A DNA stretch of 46,798 nucleotides from Acrasis kona. Taxonomy: Eukaryota > Heterolobosea > Eutetramitea > Acrasida > Acrasidae. The notes under the pieces are model-generated. The model ran no database searches. It worked only from the letters and a program-made list of their open reading frames with translations, and had not been told where the DNA came from. Positions 3 through 21,038 of the stretch are shown one piece after another (the stretch's first letter is position 1; each line of letters opens with the position of its first letter). The DNA lies in the NCBI GenBank assembly GCA_026419775.2, contig JAOPGA020001148.1, positions 1 through 46,798 on the forward strand, read 5' to 3'. The position numbers and the translations under genes are program-made.

Positions 3-1259
3 ACCGATCCTCAATCTAATAACATCATCCATACTAGGGCACTACAAATCCCACCATGCGAAAGTTCCACACACGCCGAAATTATTGGAGCCATCATTGT
101 TATTAAAGCACTCCCTGTCAATTCAAAGGTATGTATATTTATTGACAATCAAAATGCAGTACGGATGAATCAATCATCTGAGAGGACTGGACACCTGTCA
201 AAGACCTTCCACTACCTGGCGACATTTAAAGGCATTGACGCGTCAATCAATTGGATCAAAGGACATAGTGGAGACAGAGATAACGACCTGGCCGATGCCA
301 ATGCTGATGTTGGACGCACATCTGGCACCCCTATTATCCTCACCCGTACTATCATCATGGCGCACTCCCCCCAATTTGTAATAATCCACGGTACCCACAA
401 CATCAACCCCAACATTCCTCGGTTGGTCAGAGAATACTACCTTTCCAACATCTCCCCAGAATCATCCAACTCTACTGTCTACGACCTCCCCACCCACACT
501 GAAGCCCCTCACGGTATTTCAAACATGATATGGAACACTATGTGCCCCAACCGTCCTGCCCTTTCCCTACTTCGAGCACGTTGTGATCAATTCTACAACA
601 GAGACCTAAAAAGTGGAGCGCTTCTGAAATGTAGTTTATGTGGCCAGGATGCTGATCTTAAGCACCTTGTTCTCGAGTGCAGATATGTTGATATTGCCAT
701 TGCGGAACTAAAACAAGATATAAATAAAGTCCTAAACGATCATTTTCTGAATGATCACAAAATCTCTCTCTCTTGGAACAATATCGACTCTCCTAGTAAT
801 ATCCGCACCAACCACCTCGTCATTGACCTACGTGGTTTCTTCTCTAACTCCTGTTACACCCACATCCGCTCTGCCCTTAATAAAATCTACCTGAACGACC
901 GAGATAAATCCAATTATGAAGCTACCTCAATCATAAGAAACATACTTTCCCTTCTTGGGAGACACATATTCGCCCGTACCAGACACATCCAGTACCCGGT
1001 CCAAATTGTAAACGACAATTCGATTGGCGCGCCATTTAACGGTCTGTGCGATATCTTTCCCCCCATTGGGAAAGTGCAGGAATCAGCTTATGTGTCAAAC
1101 CCACCCACCCACCTTTATTGTGATTTCGTCTGTATTACCCACCCAATGTGTGCTGATAGTAAATATAAAAAACCGGGCCTGCGGCCAGCTTCTTTACTTC
1201 TATTTAAAGACTTCGTTGAAGATACTGCACTTTTGCCAATTCTTCAACAACATATTTGA
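3..1259 (+). CDS. Non-LTR retrotransposon polyprotein, 3' end: RNase H plus C-terminal zinc knuckle (5' partial)
   Basis: The frame is open from base 3, so the start lies left of the window. The visible protein begins inside an RNase H fold. It has an AE pair in a helix (about residue 26), FIDNQNAV carrying the next catalytic Asp, and INWIKGHSGDRDNDLAD, which matches the closing WxxGHxGxxxN..AD block of LINE-type RNases H. The first catalytic Asp should lie outside the window. About 110 residues later a knuckle of form C-X2-C-X7-H-X4-C (CSLCGQDADLKHLVLEC) follows, as in the tail of many plant, protist and arthropod LINE ORF2 proteins. The reverse transcriptase and endonuclease would be upstream. 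The visible part has no internal stop, so the copy may be recent. No poly-A tail is obvious after the stop at 1259. Confidence 0.82.
   Translation, partial: TDPQSNNIIHTRALQIPPCESSTHAEIIGAIIVIKALPVNSKVCIFIDNQNAVRMNQSSERTGHLSKTFHYLATFKGIDASINWIKGHSGDRDNDLADANADVGRTSGTPIILTRTIIMAHSPQFVIIHGTHNINPNIPRLVREYYLSNISPESSNSTVYDLPTHTEAPHGISNMIWNTMCPNRPALSLLRARCDQFYNRDLKSGALLKCSLCGQDADLKHLVLECRYVDIAIAELKQDINKVLNDHFLNDHKISLSWNNIDSPSNIRTNHLVIDLRGFFSNSCYTHIRSALNKIYLNDRDKSNYEATSIIRNILSLLGRHIFARTRHIQYPVQIVNDNSIGAPFNGLCDIFPPIGKVQESAYVSNPPTHLYCDFVCITHPMCADSKYKKPGLRPASLLLFKDFVEDTALLPILQQHI
1068..1087 (+). repeat. 20-bp inverted repeat, left arm
   Basis: This 20-mer, which begins GGGAAAGTGCAGG and lies inside the retrotransposon ORF, recurs as an exact reverse complement at 1813-1832. 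Both copies adjoin a CCAC-rich tract, but the tract has the same plus-strand orientation at both places, so it is not part of the palindrome. Confidence 0.85.
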
Positions 1260-1410
1260 ATATGTATATTGAGCCGTTGACAGAAATGCAAAAATTACAA
1301 AAGTTGGGTTACTACGCAAAAATACGTATTTAGTATGTTTTCGGTACTCATCGTTGTTAGGTTGGTTTGGAACTTGAGGCGCGGATTCAAGATTACAGAT
1401 AACTGAAGCA

Positions 1411-1776
1411 ATGAAGCAACAAACTACTTTATCATTCAAAAGTGGACAATTTAAATTATCCAATGAGAAGCCTACTTTCAGTGCTACTTTCTACTTCCCA
1501 AAGCCTTCAAATCCATACCAAGAATATGTCAATGCTTATTGCTATTTGACAATGACTAAAGCTAATTCCAACTCCTTTAGAAAACAAGACTTGGAGGTCG
1601 CTGCTAAAGCGATGTATAAAGACCTAGACGAGTTGACGGCAAAGGACAAGAGAAACAAGTTGTTACTTTTAACAGATGCATTAAAAAAACTTCAATACAA
1701 ACTTTTTGTATTTGAAAACACCTTAGACCCACCCCAAAACACTGATTTTTTACCGACACCCACCCCCCTATACTGA
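1411..1776 (+). CDS. Orphan ORF between the retrotransposon end and an inverted-repeat arm
   Basis: This is a 121-residue ORF that I do not recognise with confidence. It starts MKQQTTLSFKSGQF and has a basic, helical middle (about residues 35-95) whose spacing of Pro, Tyr, Trp-like and Lys residues faintly recalls an HMG box. It ends in a Pro-rich tail encoded by a CCCACC-rich tract. The tract and the imperfect duplication of ACTGATTTTTTA at 1740-1780 suggest that the 3' part is repeat-derived. It lies between the LINE stop (1259) and the inverted-repeat arm at 1813. It could belong to a mobile element or be a small host gene truncated by one. No intron is evident. Confidence 0.35.
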   Translation: MKQQTTLSFKSGQFKLSNEKPTFSATFYFPKPSNPYQEYVNAYCYLTMTKANSNSFRKQDLEVAAKAMYKDLDELTAKDKRNKLLLLTDALKKLQYKLFVFENTLDPPQNTDFLPTPTPLY

Positions 1777-1812
1777 TTTTTTAAAAATTTTTACCCACCC
1801 ACCCACACGTTG

Positions 1813-1832
1813 GCTGATTCCTGCACTTTCCC
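1813..1832 (-). repeat. 20-bp inverted repeat, right arm
   Basis: This is the exact reverse complement of 1068-1087, and it follows an ACCCACCCACCC tract at 1790-1805. The two arms enclose 725 bp that include the retrotransposon ORF tail and the orphan ORF. Confidence 0.85.
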
Positions 1833-1978
1833 TTTACAATCGAGGTTGGACTTTGTTGCTTTAGCGGAGAACTGCACTCCGGAATGACGGTGGATGCCTG
1901 ACATGTGTTACATTATTATAATGAATATCCTTATTTGGAGTCCTTTCAAGTACCGAACACTTTTCAAAAAGCAATAAA

Positions 1979-4342
1979 ATGAGGTTCCTACTGTTTCTGT
2001 TGGTCCTCTGTATTGTTCTAGTGGCCACATATCAAGCCGAGGCTTCCTCCGAAACCGCAAAGAATATCTCACCAGCAAGAACCACTGCACCCCCAAAACC
2101 ACGTGCAAATCAAAAACCAAAAAATAGTGGTAAAATCAACCGAGCCCCCAACACATTAAGATCAGGGGCCAAGAAGAATGCAGAAAATGCAGGAAAACCA
2201 GGAAGAAATTTTACAAAAGGTGACAACAAAAACAAATCACAAAAGCCCAAAGGAAAGAAACAAGGCGGAAGCAAGAGAAACAGTAGAGAAGGCAAGAATG
2301 GCCATAGGACAAATAACAGAGGCAAACAATCTCGTCAGCCCAAAGGTAGATCCAACCGTGGTCTTCTTAGTCGTAAAAACAAGGATAGAATTAATTCGCG
2401 TTTAGAGAATGCTGTGAAGAATAACATTCGCAAAAACAAGAACAGAGCTAAAAAGAATAACAAAAGAGGAAACAACAAAAGCAAGCGCAATAATAAAAAT
2501 AGGGCAGGTAGAAAATCTAACAAAAAATCTAGTAGGAAGTCCAACAGAAAGTCTAACAGAAGAAATAAGGGCAACAAAAGAGGAAGGATCAACAAAGGCA
2601 GGCGCAACAACAAAAACAGAAGGGTCAATAGAAGCAACCGAAGGAACAATGGAAACAAGGCCAACAAGAATAAAAGAAGCAAACGTAACAAACAAGGACG
2701 CAGAAACAAAAATAGGCGCAATAACAAAAGAAATACAAGAAGCAACAGAAGCAGAGGTAACAGAAAAGGACGCAACAACAGAGTCAATAGAAGAAATAAA
2801 AACAACAATAAAAGAAAGAACAACAATAAAAGAAGCAAAAATGGAAGCAGACGTAACAACAAAAACGAAAGAAATAACAAGAATACTAGAAACATTTTAA
2901 ACAAACTTCGAAAAACATGGAACAACAAAATAAACAAGCTTAAAGGGAACAAGAGAAACCAAACCAACAACAAATCAAAAAACAATCGTCGCTCAAAGAA
3001 CAATAACAATCAAATCAAAAGAAATCCAAACAAGAACAAGGAAACCAGCGCCAAGGCAATCAAGAACGCTTCAGACAAATTAAAAAACGCACTCAATTTC
3101 CTTTCAAATAAAGGTGGTCTCAAAAAGACGATCGGCGCCCTCCGAAACATGTTAGAGGCCGCACAAAATTCCAACAAAAAAAACGTCATCAAATCCTCAA
3201 TGAAACATCTCAAATCCAATCTCAAGAGCCAATTAAAACATCTAGTCGATCGCGATTTGGAAAAGACTTTGAGAAAATTTCATCTTCCAAAAGGAATGAA
3301 CAACATTGCCACAAAAGCACTAAACGCAGCCGTCAACGTAGGTTACAAATCTTTCAAATCAAAGAGCGACCAACTAAGGAAAAGTGCCTTAAAAACAGCC
3401 AATGGACTACTCAAAGCAGGATTCCCAAGAGATATCGTCGAAAAATCAACACAAAGGCTATTAAAAGAAGGCGTCAAAAGAGCAAAAGACCAAGTTAAAC
3501 AAGAAGCAAAAAGCGCTGCGAAAAAGGCCATCGAAACCTCTGCAAAAGCAGAAAGAGAAAAGAGAATCAAAGAAAGTGGTCCAAATCTCGAAAATTTGTT
3601 AGTTAGTCAGCAGGAAAGAGACAAGGCGAGAGACATCAAGAAGAAGATCGAGAGCAGTTATGATGAAATGGTCAAGAAGGCAGGAAAGAAGGCTGTCGAT
3701 AAAATGTTGAATAAAATCAGTAAGCAAGTGGCTAATAAAGGAGGAAAAGTGGTGGGCGATCAATTATCAAAGTTGGTCACTAGCCAAGTGCTTAAAACAG
3801 TTGGAAGTACAGTTGGTAAGGCGCTGAGCGGAGCCGTAGGTGGTCTTGTCGGTGGTTTGCAAGACATCATCACTGCTAAAAGTCCTCAAGAGAAGGGCAT
3901 TGCTGCAGCAAAGGCTGTCATCGGAGGTATCGCAAGCGCACTACCTCCTCCACTTGGTCTAATTGCTAATGGCATCATGATGTTGATTCCTAATCGCGTC
4001 AGCACCGATAATACCTACATTGTAAACCAATCAAATAAGGACCTAAAAACAACCATGACTTACAATGGAGGTAAGGGCAACGAAGGTTTCAAGAATAGAA
4101 ATATCAAAGCAAGAGGTGGAAAGGACCACGATGAGTATCGTTACGCCGGTATGTATGGTGTTCAGAGCGTGAATGTAGAGATGGAGAGAGAAGGAAGAAA
4201 AGCCACTGTCACAGTACCTAGCGATACATCCATACTTGTAAAGGACGGTCAGAATGGTAAAATCGACGTGTTCACCAGCAAGTATGGTGCATTGAGATCT
4301 GCTGACGAGAAGATTGGAACTTTTGATTTTGATCAAATATAA
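1979..4342 (+). CDS. Secreted polycationic Asn/Arg/Lys-rich protein with a glycine-zipper and beta-rich C-terminus
   Basis: The protein has 787 residues and an N-terminal signal peptide (hydrophobic core about residues 3-17, likely cut near QAEASS). Residues about 35-350 are almost only Asn, Arg, Lys, Ser and Gly in short KNNK/RNNK/NRRNK words. A helical Lys-rich segment follows (about 350-600) with little sequence complexity. Near 610-690 come repeated small-residue runs such as GKALSGAVGGLVGGL and then a hydrophobic stretch GGIASALPPPLGLIANG. The last 100 residues look beta-rich and well folded. I recognise no family. The layout suggests an extracellular polycation (surface matrix, prey-binding or antimicrobial) whose C-terminal module could contact membranes, but that role is inference. 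The start at 1979 is the only ATG giving a signal peptide, in an AT-rich context. The stop lies 13 bp from the stop of the convergent NUP58 gene. Confidence 0.75.
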   Translation: MRFLLFLLVLCIVLVATYQAEASSETAKNISPARTTAPPKPRANQKPKNSGKINRAPNTLRSGAKKNAENAGKPGRNFTKGDNKNKSQKPKGKKQGGSKRNSREGKNGHRTNNRGKQSRQPKGRSNRGLLSRKNKDRINSRLENAVKNNIRKNKNRAKKNNKRGNNKSKRNNKNRAGRKSNKKSSRKSNRKSNRRNKGNKRGRINKGRRNNKNRRVNRSNRRNNGNKANKNKRSKRNKQGRRNKNRRNNKRNTRSNRSRGNRKGRNNRVNRRNKNNNKRKNNNKRSKNGSRRNNKNERNNKNTRNILNKLRKTWNNKINKLKGNKRNQTNNKSKNNRRSKNNNNQIKRNPNKNKETSAKAIKNASDKLKNALNFLSNKGGLKKTIGALRNMLEAAQNSNKKNVIKSSMKHLKSNLKSQLKHLVDRDLEKTLRKFHLPKGMNNIATKALNAAVNVGYKSFKSKSDQLRKSALKTANGLLKAGFPRDIVEKSTQRLLKEGVKRAKDQVKQEAKSAAKKAIETSAKAEREKRIKESGPNLENLLVSQQERDKARDIKKKIESSYDEMVKKAGKKAVDKMLNKISKQVANKGGKVVGDQLSKLVTSQVLKTVGSTVGKALSGAVGGLVGGLQDIITAKSPQEKGIAAAKAVIGGIASALPPPLGLIANGIMMLIPNRVSTDNTYIVNQSNKDLKTTMTYNGGKGNEGFKNRNIKARGGKDHDEYRYAGMYGVQSVNVEMEREGRKATVTVPSDTSILVKDGQNGKIDVFTSKYGALRSADEKIGTFDFDQI

Positions 4343-4355
4343 ATTAAATAATTAT

Positions 4356-5920
4356 TTATTTAACATTTCTTCTCTTTGTTGGAGGATTCGACAAATTAGG
4401 AGCAGAGTGTTCTGACCGACCGCTGTCCAAATTAGATACAGGAGTGGTTGCAGTAGCAGTGGTTCCAAATCCACCAAAACCAAATGGTTGAGTGCTTGTA
4501 ACCGGCGGAGCAGTATTGGCGGCAGTCGGAGTGGTTGCGGTGGTTCCAAAACTAAATCCACCACTTGGTGTCGTTCCTGTAGTGGTCGGCTGCGCTCCAA
4601 AGTTAAATCCACCCGTAGATGTTGATGCGGTGGTGGTTGATGTATTGTTGGTTGATGGTGTTCCAAAACTAAATCCTGATGTTGATGGAGCAGTAGTGGT
4701 TGTGCTTGGAGTGGTGCTTGTTCCAAAATTAAATCCTGATGACGATGATGTATTATTGTTTTGTGTTCCAAAGTTAAATCCTGAGGTGTTGTTGTTGTTG
4801 TTGTTGTTTTGTGTTCCAAAACTAAATCCTGACTGGACAGGTTGTGAGGGGTTGTTCTGAGCAGGTTGTGGTTGTTGTGTATTCTCTGGTTGCATCCCTG
4901 GAATGATCTATTTGAAATGTTTTTTGGTAATGATGAACGAAGGTACTTACAATGTTTTGTTTGATGGTGAGTCTGCTTCCATTTCCAAGCATTTTCTTGA
5001 TCCTGTCGGTTGAGAATATGTCTTCTTCAGTGGTAGCGCTTGTTGGTTTGGAAGCTTCAAAAATGTGATTAAGGTTGTAACTGCTTGTGAAGAATTTTTG
5101 AAAGTTTTCGCGAAGGTCGTTGGCTTGTTCATGGAGAGTTGCCACTTGTGCTGAAATGCTCAGGAGAAGTTCTTGTTGACTCTTGAGTGTTTCTTGAAGG
5201 ACTTTTGATGTTGAGTGACGATTGATGAAAAATGAATTACCAAGACCAGGAGAGTTCATCCTCTCTAGTTCATTACGTGATAGCGTAGCACCAAGTTCTT
5301 CAATTTGATGCCATAGTTCTTGCATTCTGGAATCCAAGTTCTTGGCCACGCGATGAAAGTACCTATTATGTATGTGTCAAATGAATGTTTTTTTAATACT
5401 AGTACTTACATGGAGCGATAATTCATGTCGCCTAAAAAATGCGTTGATCTTATTTTACCAAAATTAGTTTGTATGGATTCAATGTTTTGTGCTTCTTCCT
5501 TGACCTGATTGCTAATTTTACCAACCGCGTCAATGTCGCGTTTGAGATTATACAGGACACTAGCATATTTCTGATTCTGGTTAATAACAAGGTTACACAG
5601 CAACAATAACAAACTCTTTCTAATTTCGTCAAGTCTTTTTTGATTGTGTCAAGGTTTGTTGAGGTGGGTTTGTTGTCCACAAGATCAGCTAATTCTCTTC
5701 TGTTTTGTCTTTTGATGGAGTCAAACTGTTCATACTGTTGCTGTAATGCCTCTGGAAGGCTCTCAAACACTGTTCTAAAGTCAACATTTTGATAGTTTGC
5801 ATTTTGCTGTAAATTAGGTTGGGTTTGTGTATTGGTTTGGTTTCCAAAGCCTCCAAAGTTTCCGAATGAAAAAGGCGCGCTTGTTTGAGATGTGTTTGTG
5901 TTGCCAAACGTGAAGCTCAT
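4356..5920 (-). CDS. NUP58: Nucleoporin NUP58-like (FG nucleoporin, central channel)
   Basis: There are four exons: 5920-5615, 5576-5410, 5362-4951 and 4907-4356, giving 478 residues. Introns of 38, 47 and 43 bp have GTTTGT or GTAAGT starts and AG ends, and all junctions stay in frame. Layout: short N-terminal FG segment (MSFTFGNTNT), a coiled-coil core (about residues 40-295), then a C-terminal FG domain with FSFGT/FNFGT repeats spaced by Asn- and Thr-rich linkers. It ends in a basic PPTKRRNVK. The core segment YFHRVAKNLDSRMQELWHQ plus the following IEEL, and the later HEQANDLRENFQKFF, match the vertebrate NUP58 coiled coil in order and spacing. NUP58 pairs with NUP54 and NUP62 in the transport channel. 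NUP62 is the main alternative, but the YF..QIEEL block favours NUP58. The start at 5920 was chosen over an upstream in-frame codon because MSFTFG begins the FG region. Confidence 0.78.
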
Positions 5921-6087
5921 TGTTAAACTAATTACAAAATATACGTCAACCAAAGTATCAAAACAAAAACTTACTTTTGATTCTTTAGTGACTATCAAGA
6001 ATTTGTACGTTAAATTCCTAATAACAATATGTTGATTTAATGTTAAGGTTGGGATTCTGGTGTTGCTCTAAGAAATATATTGTAAAT
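5921..6087. promoter_or_regulatory. Shared upstream region of NUP58 (-) and dynein light chain (+)
   Basis: These 167 bp separate two divergent start codons (5920 on minus, 6088 on plus). The region must hold both promoters. I see no TATA-like or repeated motif beyond general AT-richness. Confidence 0.5.
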
Positions 6088-6444
6088 ATGGAAGTTAGAG
6101 AGGGGTTTGGAGTTGGTCTTAGCCAAGATCAAAAGAAGTACATGTATAATCTTATAAGGGAAACACTAATAAATAAATCTTATGGAGGTGTTGATAGTAC
6201 AAAAGAAGAACACTACACACAAAGAGCTTTTCACATCGGAAGAACATTCAATAACCACTATGGCGGTGTTTGGTCGTGCATTTGTGGAGAAATTATTAAT
6301 GACAACCTTGACTTTAGCTTCTCCCTTAGCGCAGTTCGGTTTCAGAGTGTGGTGGTGCATAAAAAGCACTTCTTTTATGTTGGTCAAATCTACGATCCTT
6401 TGGCAGCCATATCAAATACAGATTCGGAATGGAATTTAAAGTGA
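6088..6444 (+). CDS. Divergent dynein light chain (LC8/DYNLL family)
   Basis: The protein has 118 residues and no intron. The segment AFHIGRTFNNHYGGVWSCIC followed by GEIIN, and later HKKHFFYVGQI, align in order with the LC8 blocks '[21 protein letters not shown]' and 'HFIYFYLGQVAILLF', so the beta-strand exchange core is recognisable. It is longer than canonical LC8 (about 89 residues) because of an N-terminal extension and an insert. This suggests an axonemal or outer-arm LC8-like paralogue rather than the ubiquitous cytoplasmic hub. An in-frame ATG at 6040 would add 16 residues. I prefer 6088, which sits in an AAAT-ATG context and yields the more LC8-like N-terminus. The stop lies 23 bp from that of the convergent small membrane protein. 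Confidence 0.7.
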   Translation: MEVREGFGVGLSQDQKKYMYNLIRETLINKSYGGVDSTKEEHYTQRAFHIGRTFNNHYGGVWSCICGEIINDNLDFSFSLSAVRFQSVVVHKKHFFYVGQIYDPLAAISNTDSEWNLK

Positions 6445-6467
6445 TACTTGTAAATCTGTATTTATTT

Positions 6468-6734
6468 CTATTCCTCTTTAGGTTTCCCTTCCTGTTCCTT
6501 CTTTATGTTCTTCTTGTTCTTAATTCCCTTCTCACCATAATAATATTCGTATAAAGTATAGATTATGAATGGTATAATCAACAGAGGAAATGATATAAAA
6601 CAAAGTAGCACGCCAAGTAAAGATCTCACCCAGAACGTATCGAATACTGTGTCAGTCTTCACTTTTGGGTAGTCATCAATCCAATGGTGTATCTTTTTTG
6701 CCTTCTCAACAACCAAATTCACGAGGCCGGACAT
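6468..6734 (-). CDS. Small membrane protein, 88 residues
   Basis: It has a short soluble N-terminus (MSGLVNLVVEKAKKIHHWID), a roughly 30-residue hydrophobic stretch from about 47 to 77 (RSLLGVLLCFISFPLLIIPF followed by IIYTLYEYY), and a strongly basic Lys/Glu tail. The hydrophobic stretch could be one long membrane helix or a re-entrant hairpin. The basic tail predicts a cytosolic C-terminus. I recognise no family; an ER or mitochondrial outer membrane subunit is possible. The start was taken at 6734 rather than at an upstream in-frame codon, because the longer form would overlap the divergent hyccin-like start at 6761. Confidence 0.6.
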   Translation of the reverse strand: MSGLVNLVVEKAKKIHHWIDDYPKVKTDTVFDTFWVRSLLGVLLCFISFPLLIIPFIIYTLYEYYYGEKGIKNKKNIKKEQEGKPKEE

Positions 6735-6760
6735 GTTTTTTTTGTGGATTGTAATCAAAA
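6735..6760. promoter_or_regulatory. 26-bp divergent intergenic region
   Basis: Only 26 T-rich/A-rich bases separate the start codons of the small membrane protein (6734, minus) and the hyccin-like gene (6761, plus). At least one promoter or 5' UTR must therefore extend into the neighbouring coding sequence. Confidence 0.55.
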
Positions 6761-7962
6761 ATGGAAGTTGATGCACTCAGGAGGCTGGCAACCTATAAAG
6801 GCCAGAATGTAGATACCAACACAATATCAGTGTGCGTGGGCCAAGTTAGCGCTGACGCCTCGATATTCCAAAAAGTTGACTCCTTTATCTTGAGCGGTAG
6901 GAGGAGTGCCGGTGATGTGGAGGAGGACTACATTATAACTTTGTTGGAATGGTACAAGTCTAATATAACAGGTACTGTTGTACTACTTTTGAGGCACGTT
7001 CCCTCCTGCATTTCTGCATTCCTAAACAATAAAGAAGATTCATTAGGTAACGAACCATACTGAGAATTTTGGCTTACATTTAAGTGTCGGCAATTTTACT
7101 TTGCGTGTATAATGTTGAAGTTTCAAAGAGAATTAACCTGCGCAGCTTAGAAGGATCAATTTCTTTATTAAAGTCTCTGGACAATGTTAGAACAATATAC
7201 AACATTGGAGATCCATCAACACAAAGACAAGTACAAGCACCATTAACTGCTGTAAGAACCGATTGATGTAGTAACTAACAATTATAGAGGTCTCTAGACG
7301 CCGCCAACCGAGTCCCAACAACAAGTCACTTGGATGTGATTCCCAAAGAACAGTTAGAAAGCTATACATTTGAAACTGAGGTACGCCCTAGAGTAATCCA
7401 CGTGTGCATGCAAGTATTTAATAATCATTTGGATTTATACTCTGGAGACGTACTTCTTAGTGCAGCCCAGATCATACAATCGTAAGTCATCGATTAAACG
7501 CATTCTAACGCATTTAGAGTAACCATAAGTGGAATGCCATACCAGACCCCCACATTTGACAAAGTAGTAGCATACACTGCAAACCAGATACAGAAGCCGT
7601 TACAAAAAGTTGTGGTTGACCTCAAGACCAATGCCATTTCCTTCGTTCCGTTAGAGCCTAATGAGATAATCGAGCAGGTCAAACCAACACATTTGCACAT
7701 GTTTACCGAGACTGGCATGTTGGCATGTGAGCCCTTGACTAAGAAAAGGTTTTTGTTACAAGAATCAATTCTGTTGGAGTTTGCACATACTATGAGATAC
7801 ATGGCTTTCAACTTGAGGACAAGACCACTTGCACTGGACATTGACGCATCAAAGATTGGAGCCGTCATTGTGGAAGCTCTCTACTCTCTACATGCAAGAG
7901 GAACCTATCAATGTTACGAAAAAGTTATTCTACATACACAAAGTGTGCTTCAACAATTATAA
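6761..7962 (+). CDS. Hyccin (FAM126)-like subunit of the plasma-membrane PI4-kinase complex
   Basis: There are four exons: 6761-7046, 7085-7251, 7288-7481 and 7518-7962, giving 363 residues. Introns of 38, 36 and 36 bp keep the frame. The join at 7046/7085 creates LVSAILLCVYNVEVSK, which matches the hyccin block 'CIEALLLGVYNLEIVD'. Later LLSAAQIIQSVTISGMP matches the helix ending in 'CGYP'. The C-terminal helix ending ARGTYQCYEKVILHTQSVLQ resembles the end of the hyccin helical domain. Hyccin scaffolds PI4KIII-alpha with TTC7 at the plasma membrane to make PI4P. The similarity is by eye, so another all-helical scaffold cannot be excluded. The last ~150 bp of the CDS plus the 3' UTR are duplicated at 12851-13035, downstream of an inserted island. 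Confidence 0.5.
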
Positions 7963-8033
7963 ATGTTTTTATTTTTATCAAAATGTGAATGTTCTGCACA
8001 ATTTCAATCTGGTGTTCTCTGTTATAATAGCTC
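7806..8033 (+). repeat. Left copy of the host duplication flanking the RHS island
   Basis: This copy holds the hyccin-like exon 4 end and 3' UTR, followed by a shortened relic of the C-terminus of the two-TM gene. It matches 12851-13133 with long near-identical stretches: about 7850-7995 against 12889-13035 differs at only a few positions. It lacks about 60 bp present in the right copy after GTTCTGC. Confidence 0.85.
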
Positions 8034-10350
8034 TAATATGTCAACCTTTAATTTCTTTGGACAAAAGAAGTCTAAATACTCTTCAAATTTGTAAATATTA
8101 ATTTCAGAACTCATTTTCAAACGTTTGAAAATCATCATATTTGTTTCTCCAATAAAATCGTCCAACCCTTCATTATTTAAAAGGACCACTGTAATATTTT
8201 TCTTGATTGTAGTTCGTTTCATTTTTTGATTGTATAAAACAGTATTGGTTGCTCTTATGTACTTTTCATCGACTTGATTTGTATTGGTTGTACCCTTCAA
8301 CTTATCATACATACTATCTGAGTTGAGTCTCATAAATGTTACATAGATATGTATCTTGTCTTGTTCTCCAAACAACTTGCTTACCAAGTTTAATTCTTCA
8401 TCTATTTCTGCAACCAGCAGATTGTCCCCTCTATTTCGATCCTGAATCCAAATAACAGAAGTATTGCCAGAGTTATCTTTCAATTTAATCATGCGGTCGA
8501 ACGAGTTTGAACATTTGGTTACTGGCTCAATAACACAATTATATGGTAGATATTCGAAATAACTAGAAAAGTCTGAAGTATGTATGGCCCCTGCATATAT
8601 GTTTCCTTTGAAACTTTTGATCTCGGCCAACTTTGGTTCTTTCGCAGTAATTCCGTCAAATTGAAAAACTACGGCTTCAGGTTTTACAAAAGCACAGTCA
8701 CCTAAAGTAGAACCTTTTAGGAAAGGAAACAAATCACAATATCTGCTATGATTAGAGCAATATGTCAACCTCAAGGTTATTGCTCTTTTGCAAACAAACT
8801 CCCAAAGATCACCATTTCCAGTCTCAAGAGGGAGGAGGAACTCCGACTTGAGTTGGCAATCCTTAAACATCATCGAAGCAAAGTGCATGGTATAGTAGGA
8901 TGCCACTAATTTTACTGCTCCTGTACCACTGCTTTTATCAACACTAAGACCCATAAAATTCGCTACGTCTGCAATACCCATCCTCGCCTGTAAATCGTCA
9001 AATCCTGCAGTTGAGGCTCGAAGTGTTGCATTGTCATCAGTAAGAAGTTTGAATACTGCCATAGTGAGGAGCATGTTATAAACACGAAGAAGCTTTGGTG
9101 ACCTATAAATATTAATACGATCTGAGGGGGTTACTAAAAGCCGCAGTCCTGGTATTTGAAACTCTTCAATTTGAGTCTTCTCGCAGTAACGCTTCAAGCT
9201 TTCAAGCGTTGGTGGCACGCTGTCATACGATGTTCTACTATTGATGAACCCGAACACAACATGGTGGACTTGTATTGGTATTCCCTGAGTGTATTTCAAC
9301 ACTTCCTCAACAAACCTATCAATTCCTTCTTCTAAGCAATTTTGAAGTAGAGGATGTCCTGTACGGACAGCAGTCTGAAGTATTATCTGCTTCAATACTG
9401 ATTTGGTGAACGGTGGAAAATCAATGGTTGCAATTAGGCCAGGGGATTGCGCAGAGTACCTATCGAACAAATTTCCCCCAAGCATACTTAGGATTGGAGA
9501 TCTACCCGACAAATAAAACATCATTCCGCCTGTTGACATCATCGCGTTTAGAGCATCCCAAATTTTGTATGTTGTTGTAACGAGACCATCGCTGATTATT
9601 TCCGACAGATCCTTTTTTGCTTCTCCTCTCATCTTAATCTGGCGAGAACGGTCAATTAAATGGATGAGCAAGTCTATCTCATCCATGTGTATGAATATGA
9701 TTTCCTTCTTCTTCATATTCAAAATGTACTCTGCAAGTTTATATAGTTTAAAGTATCTTTGGTAATATTGTCTTAGCTTTGCTTCCTCTGAAATTTTACT
9801 CTCCTCTTGTTTTAACCAATCCGAAAATTGTTCTTCATTGACCGAAAATTTTCTGAGTATAATGTGAAATACAATATCAGACTCACTTCGGCCCCTGACA
9901 TCTTCCTCTGACATCAAGTCGAAGAGTATGTCCGCACAAAACGTTTTCTCTGGATCGCAAATCAATTTCGCAAATCGTTTGGCTTCAATTGTGTTGAAAT
10001 GGCTCTTTCCGTTTTTCTCCTCATCCAGCATGGCGCTTACAGAACTTGTCATATTCGCTCCAAACCTATAAATCTTAGAGGCTGGTCAAAAAAAAATACC
10101 TTGTCTTTCCCACACCATACATTTGGCCAGCACAGCACAGACGTAATGAGCGAAAGGTCTCTCTACTTGACACATTCCATCTTATTAGTCCTCTTCGAAA
10201 ATTGTTATAATTCGATTGAAAGGTCTCCAACATCCTTATGTACAGGCCAGGATGAATGTGGTAGTTTAACTTATTTTCATAAAGTGTGAAGGTTTTACTC
10301 TCGATCTCTTCAAATTCATCATGACTTTCATTATTTTTTAAAACATGCAT
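8022..10350 (-). CDS. RHS/Crinkler-type protein: P-loop NTPase plus PD-(D/E)XK-like nuclease
   Basis: There are two exons, 10350-10100 and 10065-8022, with a 34-bp intron (GTATTT...TTATAG). The protein has 764 residues. Splicing rebuilds the P-loop region AGQMYGVGKT (about 74-83). Walker B is IIFIHMDEID (about 207-216). A middle helical part follows, with a sensor-like YLSGRSPIL. The C-terminal part has the order expected of RHS/CRN nucleases: helix Glu in GDLWEFV, Asp in FQFDG (about 553), then E-x-K in LAEIKS (about 567). Families of this layout are retrotransposon hot-spot proteins of trypanosomes and Crinkler proteins of oomycetes, fungi and protists, proposed to act in conflict with transposons or other cells. 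No ubiquitin-like header is visible, so the N-terminus may be lost or short. Its last codons and stop lie in duplicated host sequence. The gene itself looks intact. Confidence 0.72.
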
Positions 10351-10389
10351 CCGTGAATGTAGACTAGGGCTCCCACCAAAAGTAATTGT

Positions 10390-10454
10390 TCTGGAATTTT
10401 GTTTTGTTTTGCTAAGTCTAAGTCTGGAATTTTTATTGTTTTGCTAAGTTTAAA
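10390..10454. repeat. Imperfect tandem duplication, two ~33-bp units
   Basis: Units 10390-10422 and 10423-10454 both begin TCTGGAATTTT and end in GTTTTGCTAAGT plus TCTAAG or TTTAAA. They lie just upstream of the RHS-like gene's first codon and before a TTCCGTTCCGTTC run. Confidence 0.8.
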
Positions 10455-10547
10455 TTCTAAATAATTTTGTTTGTTCCGTTCCGTTCAAAAGGCGAACAAT
10501 CAGACCAAATGAAGATCCGACCGAATACTCATAATTCTCACATATGA

Positions 10548-11045
10548 TCACAAATCCTTCTCGTCTTTCAAAATCTTACCAATCTTTTTGGATAGAATGT
10601 CCTTGGTGTCCCCGCTCACCCAGTGGAATCTCACAAGCTCAACGTAGCCGGAGACTGATGTCTCTTCCAATATTGTGTTGATGAAGAGACTTTACAGCTT
10701 CCGAGGGATCTCACCTTCGAACATCTCTTTGTAGGCCTTTGGAGAGAAGCTGAAGATTGTTTCTAGAGCAGGGTGACTCGCTTCATTTCTTTTCCCTTTA
10801 GCTTTGACCTCGCAAGATGTCAAATCAAGCTAATGTCTATCTCCGTGGCATGAGTATTCTTCAAAAGTGTTGCTGGTGGTAATATTTACTTCCTTCCATG
10901 GCTTTCCGATTGCGCTTGATGGCATAGTCATTGCTAAAATGTTCAATCGTACCACTATTCTTGTCATCATGGATTTCTTTGTTCACGTTGGAGATGTATC
11001 AGTCTATCTCGTTGTCCTTCATTGTCATTGTTCTGTTTTTAGACT
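10548..11045 (-). pseudogene. Decayed nuclease-like gene fragment (RHS/Crinkler-like?)
   Basis: On the minus strand this stretch reads as protein-like sequence broken by stops and frame changes. Upstream (10890-11045) are charged residues ending near YAIKRNRKAMEG. Around 10800-10840 an acidic strand, ATEIDISL, is followed in another frame by LTSCEVKAKGKRNE. A segment ALETIFSFSPKAYKEMFEGE then meets an in-frame TAA near 10690, and coding-like sequence continues to a TGA at 10548. Asp followed by E-x-K (CEVKAK) is the signature of a PD-(D/E)XK nuclease, as in its intact neighbour, though the two are not obviously close paralogues. At least one stop and one or two frameshifts make it a relic. 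Base composition is higher in GC than its surroundings. Confidence 0.5.
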
Positions 11046-11101
11046 GACTTTTTTTGACTTTCTCTGATTTTGCATATCTTTACAATAGGAATTGCACTAT
11101 G

Positions 11102-11164
11102 AAATAAATAATAAATAAATAATAAATAATAAATAAATAATAAATAAATAATAAATAAATATTC
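11102..11164. repeat. AAAT/AATAA microsatellite
   Basis: An uninterrupted run of AATAAAT-type units about 60 bp long lies between the decayed nuclease fragment and the 1.3-kb inverted-repeat unit. Confidence 0.9.
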
Positions 11165-11212
11165 ATTCATCTAAGAGAACACATACTCTCGTCACGTTCA
11201 TCTCAAAAGACC

Positions 11213-11233
11213 CGTGATTTTTAAAGTACTACT
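11213..11233 (+). repeat. 21-bp inverted repeat, left arm (19/21 match)
   Basis: CGTGATTTTTAAAGTACTAC plus T. Its imperfect reverse complement lies at 12503-12523. A local GTGATTT...AAATCAC hairpin (11214-11240) overlaps this arm. Confidence 0.6.
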
Positions 11234-11393
11234 AAATCACAAAATTCTGCTACTTTTGAAGTTATAAATTACTGCTTCGGAGTTGGTTAAAAAGTAGTAC
11301 NAAAAGTACCAAAATAAACTGCGATTGATTAAATTANGAAGTTCAATTAGTAGAGGTGACNCAATATCNATTCAAATGAATGATGTCGTTATG

Positions 11394-12299
11394 CTACGAA
11401 AAGTGTGTCACGCGGATGAAAAAGTAAGATTGGATGTAGAAGAGGAACTTTCCGGAGCAAATACTGCTACTTTTCTTGTACTTTTGGGCATTGATTTCAC
11501 TGTTTTGTAGAGGCAAGCGGACTAGTACTCCGAAGAAGCAACTGTGACTCTTTAATACATTATAAATCAACGATTTATTGCACTTAACAGAGTTTTGCTT
11601 TTTTTTTTTATAAAAAGAATCTTCGAGATCATCATCATCTACTCCACTGTAATCAATACAGAATACGGAGTCCGATTGTTGTTTGATCTGTTCTCTTAAT
11701 TTGATAAAATGAATTATTGGGTGGTCGTGAGGTGCTATTCCCAATTCTTCTTTCATAAAATCATGCGGATCAAATTGGCTTTGGCACCTCAGACTGCAAT
11801 GCTAATATGGTATGTGGTAATTGATTATTGACTCCGATATAGTTAAAATGACCTCTTTGTCATGTAAGTCCTTTGTGCTTTTGACTCTTTTTTCTGAACT
11901 GATAATTGCTAATCGCCGCAAAGGCATGTTTTCAACGTGTCCTTGTTTATGTAAATGGTTTTGTACGTCAGTAAGAGATGCGAATTTTTCTGTTGTTGTT
12001 AATACCTTTCCGCTATTATCCGGTATGTCTTTCGTGAAGAAAACTAGAAACTCCTCGGCACCTCCTTCTGTTTGTCTGTGTACAGGAAAAATGCTTTTTT
12101 TATGAAGAGACTCATTGTCGTCTGTGTAGTGTATGTCTATGACCTTATTAGTTTTTTCTTGAGACCAAGTAATGTTTGTTGACGCCAAAATTGGGGAACA
12201 TCCATGCTGGACAAATGTTGTGGGATTATCATTCTTGTTTGTCTCATACCGCGAATGGTCCCACTTGGCAACAAAACCAAAGACAACCTTGGCGTTCAT
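11394..12299 (-). pseudogene. Broken or unrecognised two-part gene inside the inverted-repeat unit
   Basis: The upstream frame (12299-11802) gives 165 residues starting MNAKVVFGFVAKWDHSRYET. The downstream frame (about 11790-11394) reads LRCQSQFDPHDFMKEELGI and then DHPIIHFIKLREQIKQQ, with an acidic DDDDLED stretch. The two could be joined by a 54-bp intron with a poor 5' site (GTCATT) ending at ATATTAG near 11805, or separated by a frameshift. I recognise no domain. The downstream part degrades into low-complexity sequence and runs towards four ambiguous bases at 11301-11369. It is either a young orphan gene of the island or a decayed element gene. Confidence 0.35.
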
Positions 12300-12850
12300 T
12301 TCACTGAAGTATATTCAATGTAAGGTTAGACCTCAACCGACATTTGAAAACTTATGGATGATCCATAATTTTGTAAAGATAATTGTAACGAGATCCATTA
12401 CGAAAAAACGTTGATGGTCCAATTAATGCAATTTCAATAATTCAGCCGGCGTTGCAAGACTTCATCAAAGAATTTTTAACATTGTGATGCCGCTATATAT
12501 CTAGTACTACTTTCAAAATCACGTGATTCTTCTTGTGCAAAATTTAAACAAAACAGAAAAATCTACATCTCAAAAGGTGAGTCGATCAGACAGCGAGAAC
12601 TCTTTTCTGGTGCAAGCTTTTATCTTCAAATATAATGCACATGTTGTTGATTGGTATGCACCTTGTCCTAGTGATTTGTTACATTGTGTAAATCTTTCGA
12701 TGCTCTGGCAGATTCTGCTGCGTATGAATGTTCATCCAATGGTGTTCAGTTAATGCTACTACGAGTTGATGTGCTGGGCGAACGATTAAATGAGACCAAT
12801 TGTATTCCAATTTGCTTCGGCTCCATTCTCCACAATTGATGCGAACACAA
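12300..12850. other. Intergenic part of the island, no convincing gene
   Basis: A 76-residue plus-strand ORF at 12523-12753 (MILLVQNLNKTEKST...) has no recognisable motif, and its start lies in the inverted-repeat arm. The rest has no coding character. The right end of the island meets the duplicated host sequence at about 12851. Confidence 0.5.
12503..12523 (-). repeat. 21-bp inverted repeat, right arm
   Basis: AGTACTACTTTCAAAATCAC plus G on the plus strand; reverse-complemented it matches 11213-11233 at 19 of 21 positions. The arms bound about 1.3 kb. I could not find a clear target-site duplication outside them. Confidence 0.6.
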
Positions 12851-13133
12851 TTTCAACTCGAGGACAAGACCACTTACACTGGCATCAAAGATAGGAGCCA
12901 TCATTGTGGAAGCTCTCTACTCTCTACATGCAAGAGGAACCTATCAATGTTACGAAAAAGTTATTCTACATACACAAAGTGTGCTTCAACAATTATAAAT
13001 GTTTTTATATTTTATCAAAATGTGAATGTTCTGCGCTATATCCAAAGAATGGGAACTTTTTGGTATCTCTCAAGGGACCAGATGCTGCGATTTCAATCTG
13101 GTGCCTAATGTTCTCTGTCCTAACAGCTCTTCG
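12851..13133 (+). repeat. Right copy of the host duplication (hyccin-like 3' fragment plus end of the two-TM gene)
   Basis: It carries a 5'-truncated copy of hyccin-like exon 4 (with a 9-bp in-frame deletion after CACTGG), the intact 3' UTR, and the genuine C-terminal coding end of the two-TM gene on the minus strand. Compare 7806-8033. Confidence 0.85.
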
Positions 13134-13454
13134 TTCAAACATCCTGTAAATTTGATGAAATAAAATTATCACTAGCACAACAAGGAAATATAAACATGTA
13201 AGTGCAACCGCTGACCAAAAGGAGCTGTTAATGTTTGGTTTGTTGTCGTTGTTCATGTCACGAAGCCACAATCCACCCATTACAAGCCAAGCTATTACAC
13301 ATGCCACAGAAAAGAGAATACAAAGGTTTCTGAAGATTCTGAAGATTCCAAACGGAAACACAAATTCTGGTTCGTCTGGTTGCTCCTCATGAGATACTAC
13401 TGGTTGTACGGATAAAGTGACAGCATCTGCAGTCCCGTTGTCTTGTTGTTCCAT
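13005..13454 (-). CDS. Two-TM membrane protein, 149 residues
   Basis: An acidic, Gln-rich cytosolic-type N-terminus (about residues 1-40) is followed by two hydrophobic helices: LCILFSVACVIAWLVMGGLW (about 45-64) and WSAVALTCLYFLVVLVIILF (about 81-100). A short loop containing NNDNKPNIN joins them. The C-terminal tail after the second helix is basic and then amphipathic (FERRAVRTENIRHQIEIA). This is a hairpin membrane protein of unknown family. A relic of its C-terminal coding sequence occurs at about 7995-8033 beside the hyccin-like gene. This implies the two genes were convergent neighbours before the island separated them. Confidence 0.6.
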   Translation of the reverse strand: MEQQDNGTADAVTLSVQPVVSHEEQPDEPEFVFPFGIFRIFRNLCILFSVACVIAWLVMGGLWLRDMNNDNKPNINSSFWSAVALTCLYFLVVLVIILFHQIYRMFERRAVRTENIRHQIEIAASGPLRDTKKFPFFGYSAEHSHFDKI

Positions 13455-13607
13455 GTCGTGATATTTTTGTAAACAGTCGGGATGTCGGAGGAGGTTAAGT
13501 AGATTGTTGCTTTGGAAATGGAAGTGAATCTTGACGATTTAATGAAACAGGGTTTTTAGAATTGAAAGTAGACAAAGCATCCGTGTAACATTAATGATTG
13601 TAATAAT

Positions 13608-14654
13608 TTATTCACTACAAACAATACTTGTATCAGAAAAGTTATCAACTCTCCTCACTCCATTAACACTACCCAGCGTCGTAACAACGTCCTGAAAAGA
13701 AAGTTTTTCGTCCCACAAACCAACAATCATATCAATCAACTCCTGAGAATATTGCAATTTTTTCCCTTGATTCTGCTCCATGATGAATTTTTTTATTTGT
13801 GCTCCAATATATTTTTGTTGGCAAATGGTGTCAGCCGAGCACAAAGTTACTAATTGTAGTAAAGTAGCACCGAATGATCCAATCGTAGACAAACCAATAT
13901 AACAATCATCATCAAACCTTGCTCCCCGATAACTGCCATCAATCGAAAGATATCTCGCGCATCTAGTGGCTACACAAAAATTACCATCTTCTTTAATGTA
14001 AATATATTGAGGTGTCGGTTTATGTGGAGGCGCAATTCCATTCATTTGCATTTTCAAATAAGATTGAGCTGCTTGTAGGGCTACCTTACGGACGATTTGT
14101 TCGTCTACCTGATTTTTATCTGCACCGTAACGGTCGGGAATGTACGTATTTGCTAAATTGGGGAGGCGTGGTACTATGATGCAGTAGCAATCCTTATAAT
14201 ATTTTTCTTGTGGGACAAAATGCTTAATCACTTGAATGACACCGTCACTGTTCAAGGATTGAATGTTTTCGCACTTGATGAATGAGAATGGAAGTGATTT
14301 TCAATATGTTACCTCGATGTCTACATCAATAACTTGATTTTCAAGAATAATCACTACCTGAGTACCATCGGTAGCGGTTCCTGCGTATGTGGTGTTCTCA
14401 TAGCTGATTAAACTTTCGTGTATTAGATACTCCGAACCGATTTTACGGTCCATTCTTTCGTAAGGTTGTAGCTGATCAGGTACGCACACTTCGTTGTAAT
14501 TTTTCTTTTTCTCTTCTCTTTCTAAGCATGATTCGCACTGCCAATATCCTTCATTACCCAACATCCCCTCTTCATTTCCGCAGCTAATAGATTCTCCTCT
14601 CCCATACCCGAAGGTTGTTCTACAAAAGTAATGATTATTCGTTCGGTAATGCAT
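13608..14654 (-). CDS. Pseudokinase with a Cys-rich N-terminal segment
   Basis: There are two exons, 14654-14313 and 14273-13608, with a 39-bp intron (GTAACA...ATCAAG). The protein has 335 residues. The N-terminal ~60 residues contain CGNEEGMLGNEGYWQCESC, a possible small zinc site. After that the chain follows the protein-kinase order: a glycine-loop-like LIHESLISYENTTYAGTATD, a beta3-like GTQVVIIL lacking the Lys, an alphaC-like region, then SDGVIQVIKHFVPQEKYYKD, which is the 'HPxIVxxxxxFxxxxYxxIV' block. A catalytic-loop-position segment GIAPPHKPTPQYIYIKEDG lacks HRD, and the following strand lacks DFG. It should be unable to phosphorylate, and an allosteric or scaffolding role is inference. 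Upstream in-frame ATGs are not joined by any good intron, so 14654 is used as the start. Confidence 0.55.
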
Positions 14655-15132
14655 TGTTTGTTCTTTAATTTCAAGACTGGTAGTTTTTTGTTCTTGAACA
14701 TGCGAAGTTGTCTGAATGCTTTACAACTTACACGAACTTCGTCTTCCACCGAACTTCATTTTCCACCCTGTTATTAATATTTTGTTACAAAATCACGTTT
14801 ACATACATTTAGCAAATTAGATGTTAACAGCAAATGTATAAAAACATGGTAAACTATCTATAATATACTCTGTACTGCTTTTATTTCGATAATACCTTGT
14901 GTTTATGAAGTTTTTAGATAAATTTTTGCTTGTCGTTGATGCCTGCCGTTGAGTGTAACATTGACGAAGTGTGCTGTTAGATTTATTATAACACATTTAC
15001 ATGAAATTAGTTCCTTCTACTCCGCTCTAATTCGAAAAGGGATTATTAATGGCACTTCCTCAATCGGCGACTCAGCATGTCCAAATTTGTGTTTTGTCAG
15101 TCATTGTCAATATTATTGATTGTTTTTCAAAA
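14655..15132. promoter_or_regulatory. Divergent intergenic region, pseudokinase / RGS receptor
   Basis: About 480 bp lie between the divergent start codons. A short plus-strand ORF beginning at 15049 is in frame with the receptor and could be its true N-terminus. The rest is AT-rich with no RNA gene or repeat that I can see. Confidence 0.4.
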
Positions 15133-19738: not shown

Positions 19739-21038
19739 TTATTGTCTACCGGCTAAGGTGCGACTTCTTCTGACGCAAGCACATCTGTCTCCTCCGGGTG
19801 CAGATGAAAGTCCGGCATTGAACCAATGAACATATCCAGGTGGACATGTCCAGCAACCTCTGTTGTTGTCTGGAACACAAGCACATCTATCGCCACCAGG
19901 TGCAGAGGAAAGTCCAGCATCATACCAGTGGATTTGACCAGCAGGGCATGTCCAGCAATTTGGTGCTCTGGTAGTTGTTGGTGCACTAGTAGTTGTCGCT
20001 CCTGGTGCTCTAGTTGTTGTTGATGCTACAGTTGTAGTTGTAACAGAACCAACATTAACCAATGTCAAATAGAAGGAGCTTGGAACTACTTCACGACCAT
20101 TCAATTCAACACCACAGTTGTTGTTGTTATCAAAGAATGGAGACACATTTGGACTGACTTGTCTGTTACAAAAGTTTGGATTAGAAGCATCATTGACTGT
20201 GCTTGTAGAAAGAACGAATGTGACTACATTTTTTCTTGCACTACGGGCGGCATAGATTGCGGCGGTAACGTCGATCTGTCTTGACAATCTGCAACCACTT
20301 CCATCTTGTAAGAAGGTGCTGTTTCCAATGATATTTGATTGAAGGTTGTTGGTGCAGCTGGATGATGATTCAACAAGGTCGTAGCTTGGGTTGGCCGATG
20401 CTACAAAAGATACAATTCTGTTGGCGTTAGCGCATCTTGTTGATCTGATATCCAAAATTGCATAAGATCTGCCTGGTGTCAATGATCCGACGTCTGATAG
20501 AGAGAAACTGAAAATAATGGATGGTCTTCCTTGCCCGACTTGGTTGTATGTTCTGCTGTGACTGCATGACGTACCTCCTGGTGAGCTGAAGAAGCTTACA
20601 TCCCTGTTGTTTTTCACAACGATGGAATTTGGTGGGTTTGTAATAGTTGGTGTGTTTGTTGTGGGTGCAGATGTTGGTGCTCTAGTGGTTGTTGTTCCTG
20701 GTGTTCTAGTGGTTGTTGGTGCACTACTTTGAACGCAAGCACATCTGTCTCCTCCGGGTGCAGATGAAAGTCCGGCATTGAACCAATGAACATATCCAGG
20801 TGGACATGTCCAGCAACCTCTGTTGTTGTCTGGAACACAAGCGCATCTATCGCCACCAGGTGCAGAGGAAAGTCCGGCATCGTACCACTTGTCAGGATTA
20901 GATCGAATACAATAAAAGCAATTGGCTTACGTGGATTTGACCAGATGGGCACGTCCAACAAGGAGTGTTTGCAGATGCTGCGAAAGCTGAGGCTACAAAA
21001 GCCATGAGTGATATTGTGATGATCAGTTTTTTGTTCAT
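19739..21038 (-). CDS. Secreted protein with paired Cys/Trp cassettes at both ends
   Basis: There are two exons, 21038-20931 and 20887-19739, with a 43-bp intron. The protein has 418 residues. A signal peptide (MNKKLIITISLMAFVASAFA) is followed by two tandem cassettes of form CWTCP-G-(I/V)HW--AGLSSAPGGDRCACV. Then come a Thr/Pro linker, a ~190-residue central domain (about 130-320) with six or more Cys, a second Thr/Ala linker, and a second cassette pair. It ends in RRSRTLAGRQ. I do not recognise the central domain. A wall, cyst-coat or carbohydrate-binding secreted protein is plausible because linkers like these are usually O-glycosylated. The cassette DNA is almost identical at the two ends, and the intron interrupts only the N-terminal one. 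Confidence 0.72.
19773..19927. repeat. 155-bp direct repeat, copy 1
   Basis: It matches 20733-20887 at 152 of 155 positions, with differences at 19883, 19916 and 19922. It encodes the C-terminal cassette pair of the secreted protein. Confidence 0.9.
20733..20887. repeat. 155-bp direct repeat, copy 2
   Basis: This is the partner of 19773-19927, exactly 960 bp away. It encodes the N-terminal cassette pair and ends precisely at the 3' splice site of the gene's only intron (20888-20930). Confidence 0.9.

Follow-up and report, generated by a model that had tools for sequence, protein, structure and literature searches.

In Acrasis kona, about 4.8 kb of repeat-rich DNA (8035–12850) lies between two convergent genes, a hyccin gene and a two-TM gene, that once nearly touched each other. 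Some 290 bases from their meeting point stand on both sides of this island, and for this reason each gene still appears complete. The best explanation, to which we give a probability of roughly 0.55, is the capture of a DNA fragment at a staggered break with filled-in overhangs. Positions refer to the window, the whole stretch of 46,798 nucleotides that was analysed (contig JAOPGA020001148.1, C577), and the assembly searched is the window's own (37.35 Mb, 1021 contigs). Since this is smaller than the genome estimate of 44.02 Mb in the accessible text of the A. kona genome paper (PMC11589745), the absences reported below hold for the assembly only, and a further copy of the junction is possible outside it.

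Table 1. Features of the flanking genes, the junction copies and the island (window positions)
Feature	Position	Strand	Remarks
Hyccin (FAM126-like) gene	6761..7962	+	Spliced model of four exons, introns of 38, 36 and 36 bp; stop 7960–7962
Left junction copy	7806..8034		Hyccin 3′ end intact; two-TM C-terminus altered (without 52 + 7 bp of the right copy)
Substitution-free core, left copy	7865..7997		One 1-bp gap; 7865–7972 exactly identical; counterpart 12901–13034
RHS-like putative P-loop NTPase gene	8022..10350	-	First-exon start ATG at 10350; predicted 34-bp intron 10066–10099; stop 8022–8024
Stop and last codons of the RHS-like frame	8022..8034	-	Inside the two-TM relic
Mostly single-copy stretch	10351..11208		10340–11215 has 10 short dispersed-repeat matches besides itself
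DNA-transposon-like composite	11209..12523		Inverted repeats 11213–11237/12499–12523; left end common to dispersed copies; four single N bases
165-aa frame, multicopy family	11802..12299	-	13 matches including itself
Dispersed-repeat piece	12524..12836		Search with 12500–12850: 14 matches including itself
Short stretch at the right junction	12837..12850		Matchless elsewhere in the 12500–12850 search
Right junction copy	12851..13130		Hyccin 3′ fragment, 9 bp shorter and with 4 substitutions relative to left; two-TM C-terminus intact
Two-TM gene, 149 aa	13005..13454	-	Stop 13005–13007; single place in the assembly (two-TM protein search)

The duplicated junction and its genes

Local alignment has shown that 7806–8034 and 12851–13130 are direct copies of one convergent junction with a core spacing of 5036, and that they differ by 9 substitutions and four gaps over 220 aligned positions, so that the long host duplication proposed by the sequence-only reading to bound the island is real. 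The near-identical stretch picked out in that reading (7850–7995 and 12889–13035) is correctly placed but too narrow. Alignment and reading frames agree with its description, in which a two-TM relic accompanies the whole hyccin gene on the left and a hyccin 3′ fragment accompanies the whole two-TM gene on the right, and the block that it put at about 4.8 kb runs from 8035 to 12850. The gaps amount to 9 bp in the right copy and to 52, 7 and 1 bp in the left; filling them gives an ancestral unit of 289 bp from either side (280 + 9 on the right, 229 + 52 + 7 + 1 on the left). Since such an equality holds for any alignment of this kind, it sizes the unit but does not prove it. In the right copy, 6 bp separate the hyccin stop codon (12996–12998) from the two-TM stop codon on the minus strand.

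In each copy the half needed by the adjoining gene is intact, and the other half has changes in its island-side part. Thus, the relic frames of the left copy read RAIITENTR and AEHSHFDK, whereas the two-TM gene reads RAVRTENIR and AEHSHFDK. All 9 substitutions and every gap but the 1-bp one fall outside the 133-nt run at 7865–7997, and so every substitution sits at a place where coding requires only a single copy of the pair. A run as long as this core has a probability of 0.0018 on the assumption of uniform substitutions. The substitution-free stretch reaches 35 nt past the hyccin stop codon and 104 nt past that of the two-TM gene. Its exactly identical part of 108 bp is the longest exact repeat in 5001–15000, compared with at most 19 bp in 100 mononucleotide shuffles. 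The 10-mer ACAATTTCAA occurs on the plus strand of the window only at 7998 and 12847. A DNA search of the assembly with 7806–8033 found two places only, and hence neither a third copy of the junction nor an empty site. Protein P0003 aligns with the N-terminal part only, and so the hyccin substitutions could not be polarised.

The product of 6761–7962 belongs to the Hyccin family (Pfam PF09790, E = 5e-11, 42.7 bits against a cut-off of 25) and is identical across all 363 aa to an NCBI A. kona protein, which is labelled there as glycerol-3-phosphate acyltransferase. Since Hyccin is the only Pfam match, this label is probably a misannotation. The two-TM protein has weak Pfam matches, all below the cut-off, the top one being Anoctamin (E = 0.0011). 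A further local direct repeat of the window lies at 19757–20887 (171 bp, 95% identity, starts 961 bp apart).

The RHS-like gene and the rest of the island

The RHS-like frame is 88% identical to the A. kona paralogue P0001, but the match ends at 8040, whereas P0001 continues for another 119 residues. The island frame ends instead in ILELL and a stop codon, with its last codons in the two-TM relic, and so a gene truncated by the event has gained its stop codon from a host relic. Between the end of the P0001 match and the left junction copy (8034) lie 5 bp (8035–8039) that are assigned to neither. The frame of 676 aa has 14 matches in the genome, itself included; those on contigs C800, C477, C977 and C818 show 82–92% protein identity, and the remaining nine 22–28%. 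The paralogues on C800 and C477 extend to the ends of their contigs. Within the assembly, the island copy alone matches the middle part of P0001 at more than 30% identity. The dN/dS of the RHS-like frame, 0.58 over 397 codons with C800 and 0.48 over 318 codons with C477, indicates no more than weak constraint.

The RHS/Crinkler identity proposed by the sequence-only reading remains a motif-only label and is not confirmed. GQMYGVGKT and FIHMDEID are presumably P-loop-like and Walker-B-like motifs, respectively; the predicted intron directly follows the former, and intron-like stretches at this position vary in length among the paralogues. The candidate nuclease motif D..ExK of the island copy is G..QxK in P0001. 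No RHS/CRN family is among the above-threshold Pfam matches of the island frame, its first exon, P0001 or the paralogue pieces, and NCBIfam gave no above-threshold match for the island frame. A genome search with PF07999 (Pfam RHSP) found 0 of 1, but all 14 controls were silent as well, which makes this result uninformative. No PDB match at E ≤ 1 was found for the protein, and its AlphaFold2 model, with a mean pLDDT of 37.5, is unusable. Protein searches that scored just the 7993 and 7992 candidates with the most words in common matched A. kona P0001 alone, and the island protein is missing from the annotated proteins that the first of them found. Literature searches with a limited set of wordings returned nothing on RHS genes in Acrasis, and the accessible text of the A. 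kona genome paper (PMC11589745) contains neither of the terms Crinkler and retrotranspos.

Of the 36 matches of P0001, 25 are to its C-terminal tail, 21 of them at 29–54% identity. A C-terminal stretch of 82–121 residues recurs at four loci, L057–L060 (C222, C523, C722 and C447), at 82–98% identity behind different upstream sequence, and a GT..AG intron-like stretch common to these copies adjoins it. The tail has the appearance of an exon that was shuffled between genes; by eye it looks SAM-like, but P0001 gave no Pfam family. The C977 and C818 copies (L039 and L040) are truncated RHS-like fragments within segmental duplications of 5–7 kb and about 96% identity. Upstream of the C800 gene, at 1170–3286 of locus L037, lies an element flanked by 171-bp inverted repeats (97.7% identity), and the end motif of the island transposon is found also at position 4052 of this locus.

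Most of the block outside the RHS-like gene matches dispersed repeats or a transposon, and about 0.85 kb is largely single-copy. Six of the eight aligned copies of the transposon-like element have a terminal CCCGTGA. The 12 other matches of the 165-aa frame are equally divided between longer open frames (171–324 aa) and shorter ones, and none of six open frames of the transposon and repeat copies carries an above-cut-off Pfam family. Nine of the 11 compared copies of the dispersed repeat reach 12822–12836 and none matches further, which places the right junction 14–28 bp beyond the last position common to the nine. The right junction reads TTTCAA and some repeat copies read ATTCAAA, in an uncertain alignment. 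Together with the bases at 8035–8039, this TTTCAA is weakly compatible with end joining. The block as a whole has 42 matches in the assembly including itself, of which the self-match alone covers it fully; the second copy that would mark a transposable unit was not found in this search, and no inverted repeat of at least 20 nt pairs the two block ends. Neither junction is an element end, and the insert is without transposon ends of its own. With the P0001 match lost on reaching the left junction, and the dispersed-repeat piece ending just short of the right one, the island resembles a composite fragment that was captured rather than an element with its own ends. For the same two reasons, the suggestion that the junction shows how an RHS gene arrives is not supported. 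Elsewhere in the window, 165–1259 resembles a fragment of a non-LTR retrotransposon, with weak Pfam matches to RNase H and zf-RVT, both below the cut-off.

Proposed origin of the insertion

At the start, the hyccin and two-TM genes would have been adjacent and convergent, with 6 bp between their stop codons. The junction would then have been opened by a staggered double-strand break whose two cuts were offset by about 289 bp, fill-in of both overhangs would have retained 289 bp at each end, and a pre-existing composite of a truncated RHS-like gene with transposon and repeat pieces would have been end-joined between the copies. The unneeded island-side part of each copy would have changed later. 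We infer the staggered break, the fill-in and a single event, as well as the direction of change. A direct duplication of the pre-insertion sequence is present at both junctions, as an insertion of this kind requires, and the insertion may have been tolerated because the duplication left both genes their coding ends and some original downstream sequence. The separation of gene-side from island-side stretches by the substitutions and the gaps, and the cut that the left junction makes in the RHS-like gene 119 residues short of the P0001 end, also argue for a staggered break. Against a staggered break alone stands the 133-nt core, which simple decay does not explain and which would need gene conversion, constraint on overlapping or shared 3′ ends, or a recombination event; these are not separable.

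Insertion between the convergent genes with duplication of their junction, as offered by the sequence-only reading, thus fits the sequence best, and the unequal exchange that it named as well belongs to a distinctly unlikely two-step history. There, a tandem duplication of about 289 bp came first and the island entered later at the copy boundary, or was trapped by unequal exchange. Tandem duplications are common and the end structure would be identical, but the second event must hit the copy boundary exactly, and no further junction copy was found in the assembly. An assembly artefact is also unlikely. Junctions from different loci, for example from a translocation or a haplotype, could conceivably have been joined through the multicopy repeats of the island, because four of the five N bases of the window lie in the transposon part (11301–11369) and a 65-bp piece (11447–11511) matches six other places at 91–98%. 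The C800 and C477 paralogues end with their contigs, and the 454 and Illumina reads were assembled with MIRA and SSPACE, with overlapping contigs combined at the end, as the accessible text of PMC11589745 describes. However, longer copies of the transposon end (11211–11451) are just 79–87% identical, the complementary differences between the junction copies are unexpected for an accidental duplicate, and the duplicated breakpoint would remain to be explained.

The core is identical and divergence is confined to the island side, and on a circle of 5036 bp the island-side halves add up to a single altered junction of 220 bp. There is, therefore, an improbable alternative in which the island, together with an older altered junction, lay on a 5-kb circle that was integrated by a single crossover with the intact junction in the common core; however, an earlier insertion or capture is needed to place a junction on the circle, and no other junction copy was found in the assembly. 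A transposable unit that generates about 289 bp of target duplication is a very improbable reading of the island: the block does have direct repeats on either side, but its left end lies within a gene, its ends are not paired by an inverted repeat of at least 20 nt, and the whole block has no second copy in the assembly. The left junction cuts through the RHS-like gene, and no ends belonging to the block were seen; a self-mobile RHS element was rejected on these grounds, which also corrects the view of an RHS-like gene that brought about its own insertion.

When the flanks are joined in the core by computation, the hyccin end is restored, the two-TM frame is whole and a 5036-bp circle is freed. 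Since such joining restores both genes, the insertion is reversible in principle. It is doubtful, and at most a long shot, that the locus is a reversible switch whose 108-bp identical core is kept uniform by recombination, so that a crossover yields the circle and both genes exactly, and that filled, empty and circular forms may coexist in culture.

Comparison with known systems

Capture at a staggered break would be an ordinary mechanism with an instructive example: in a heterolobosean amoeba the trace of a DNA capture can still be read, and it shows how, where convergent genes nearly overlap, an insertion can be survived thanks to a long target duplication. Like the Crinkler-RHS-type (CR) proteins in the accessible text of PMC5289972, the island protein has P-loop-like and Walker-B-like motifs, is multicopy and has transposon pieces nearby. 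Unlike them, it is without a family profile match, and its D..ExK is not kept in P0001; of the CR-type P-loop NTPase and REase-superfamily nuclease it has candidate motifs alone, with the unusable model and the empty PDB search noted above. The likeness to repair duplication by chromosomal DNA capture, as far as the accessible part of PMC2671141 covers it, lies in copied DNA at breaks and in microhomology or filler at the ends; however, the target site duplications there are 4–21 nt, and the A. kona duplication of about 289 is far longer, which counts against a staggered break. In rice, insertions of 10–1000 bp, some of them tandem or partly tandem duplications, have been put down to asymmetrical nicks by the authors (Vaughn and Bennetzen 2014, as described in the review PMC7407515). 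The A. kona junction resembles these in having a duplication at the insertion, with offset nicks as the attributed cause, but its copies are separated by 4.8 kb of composite DNA.
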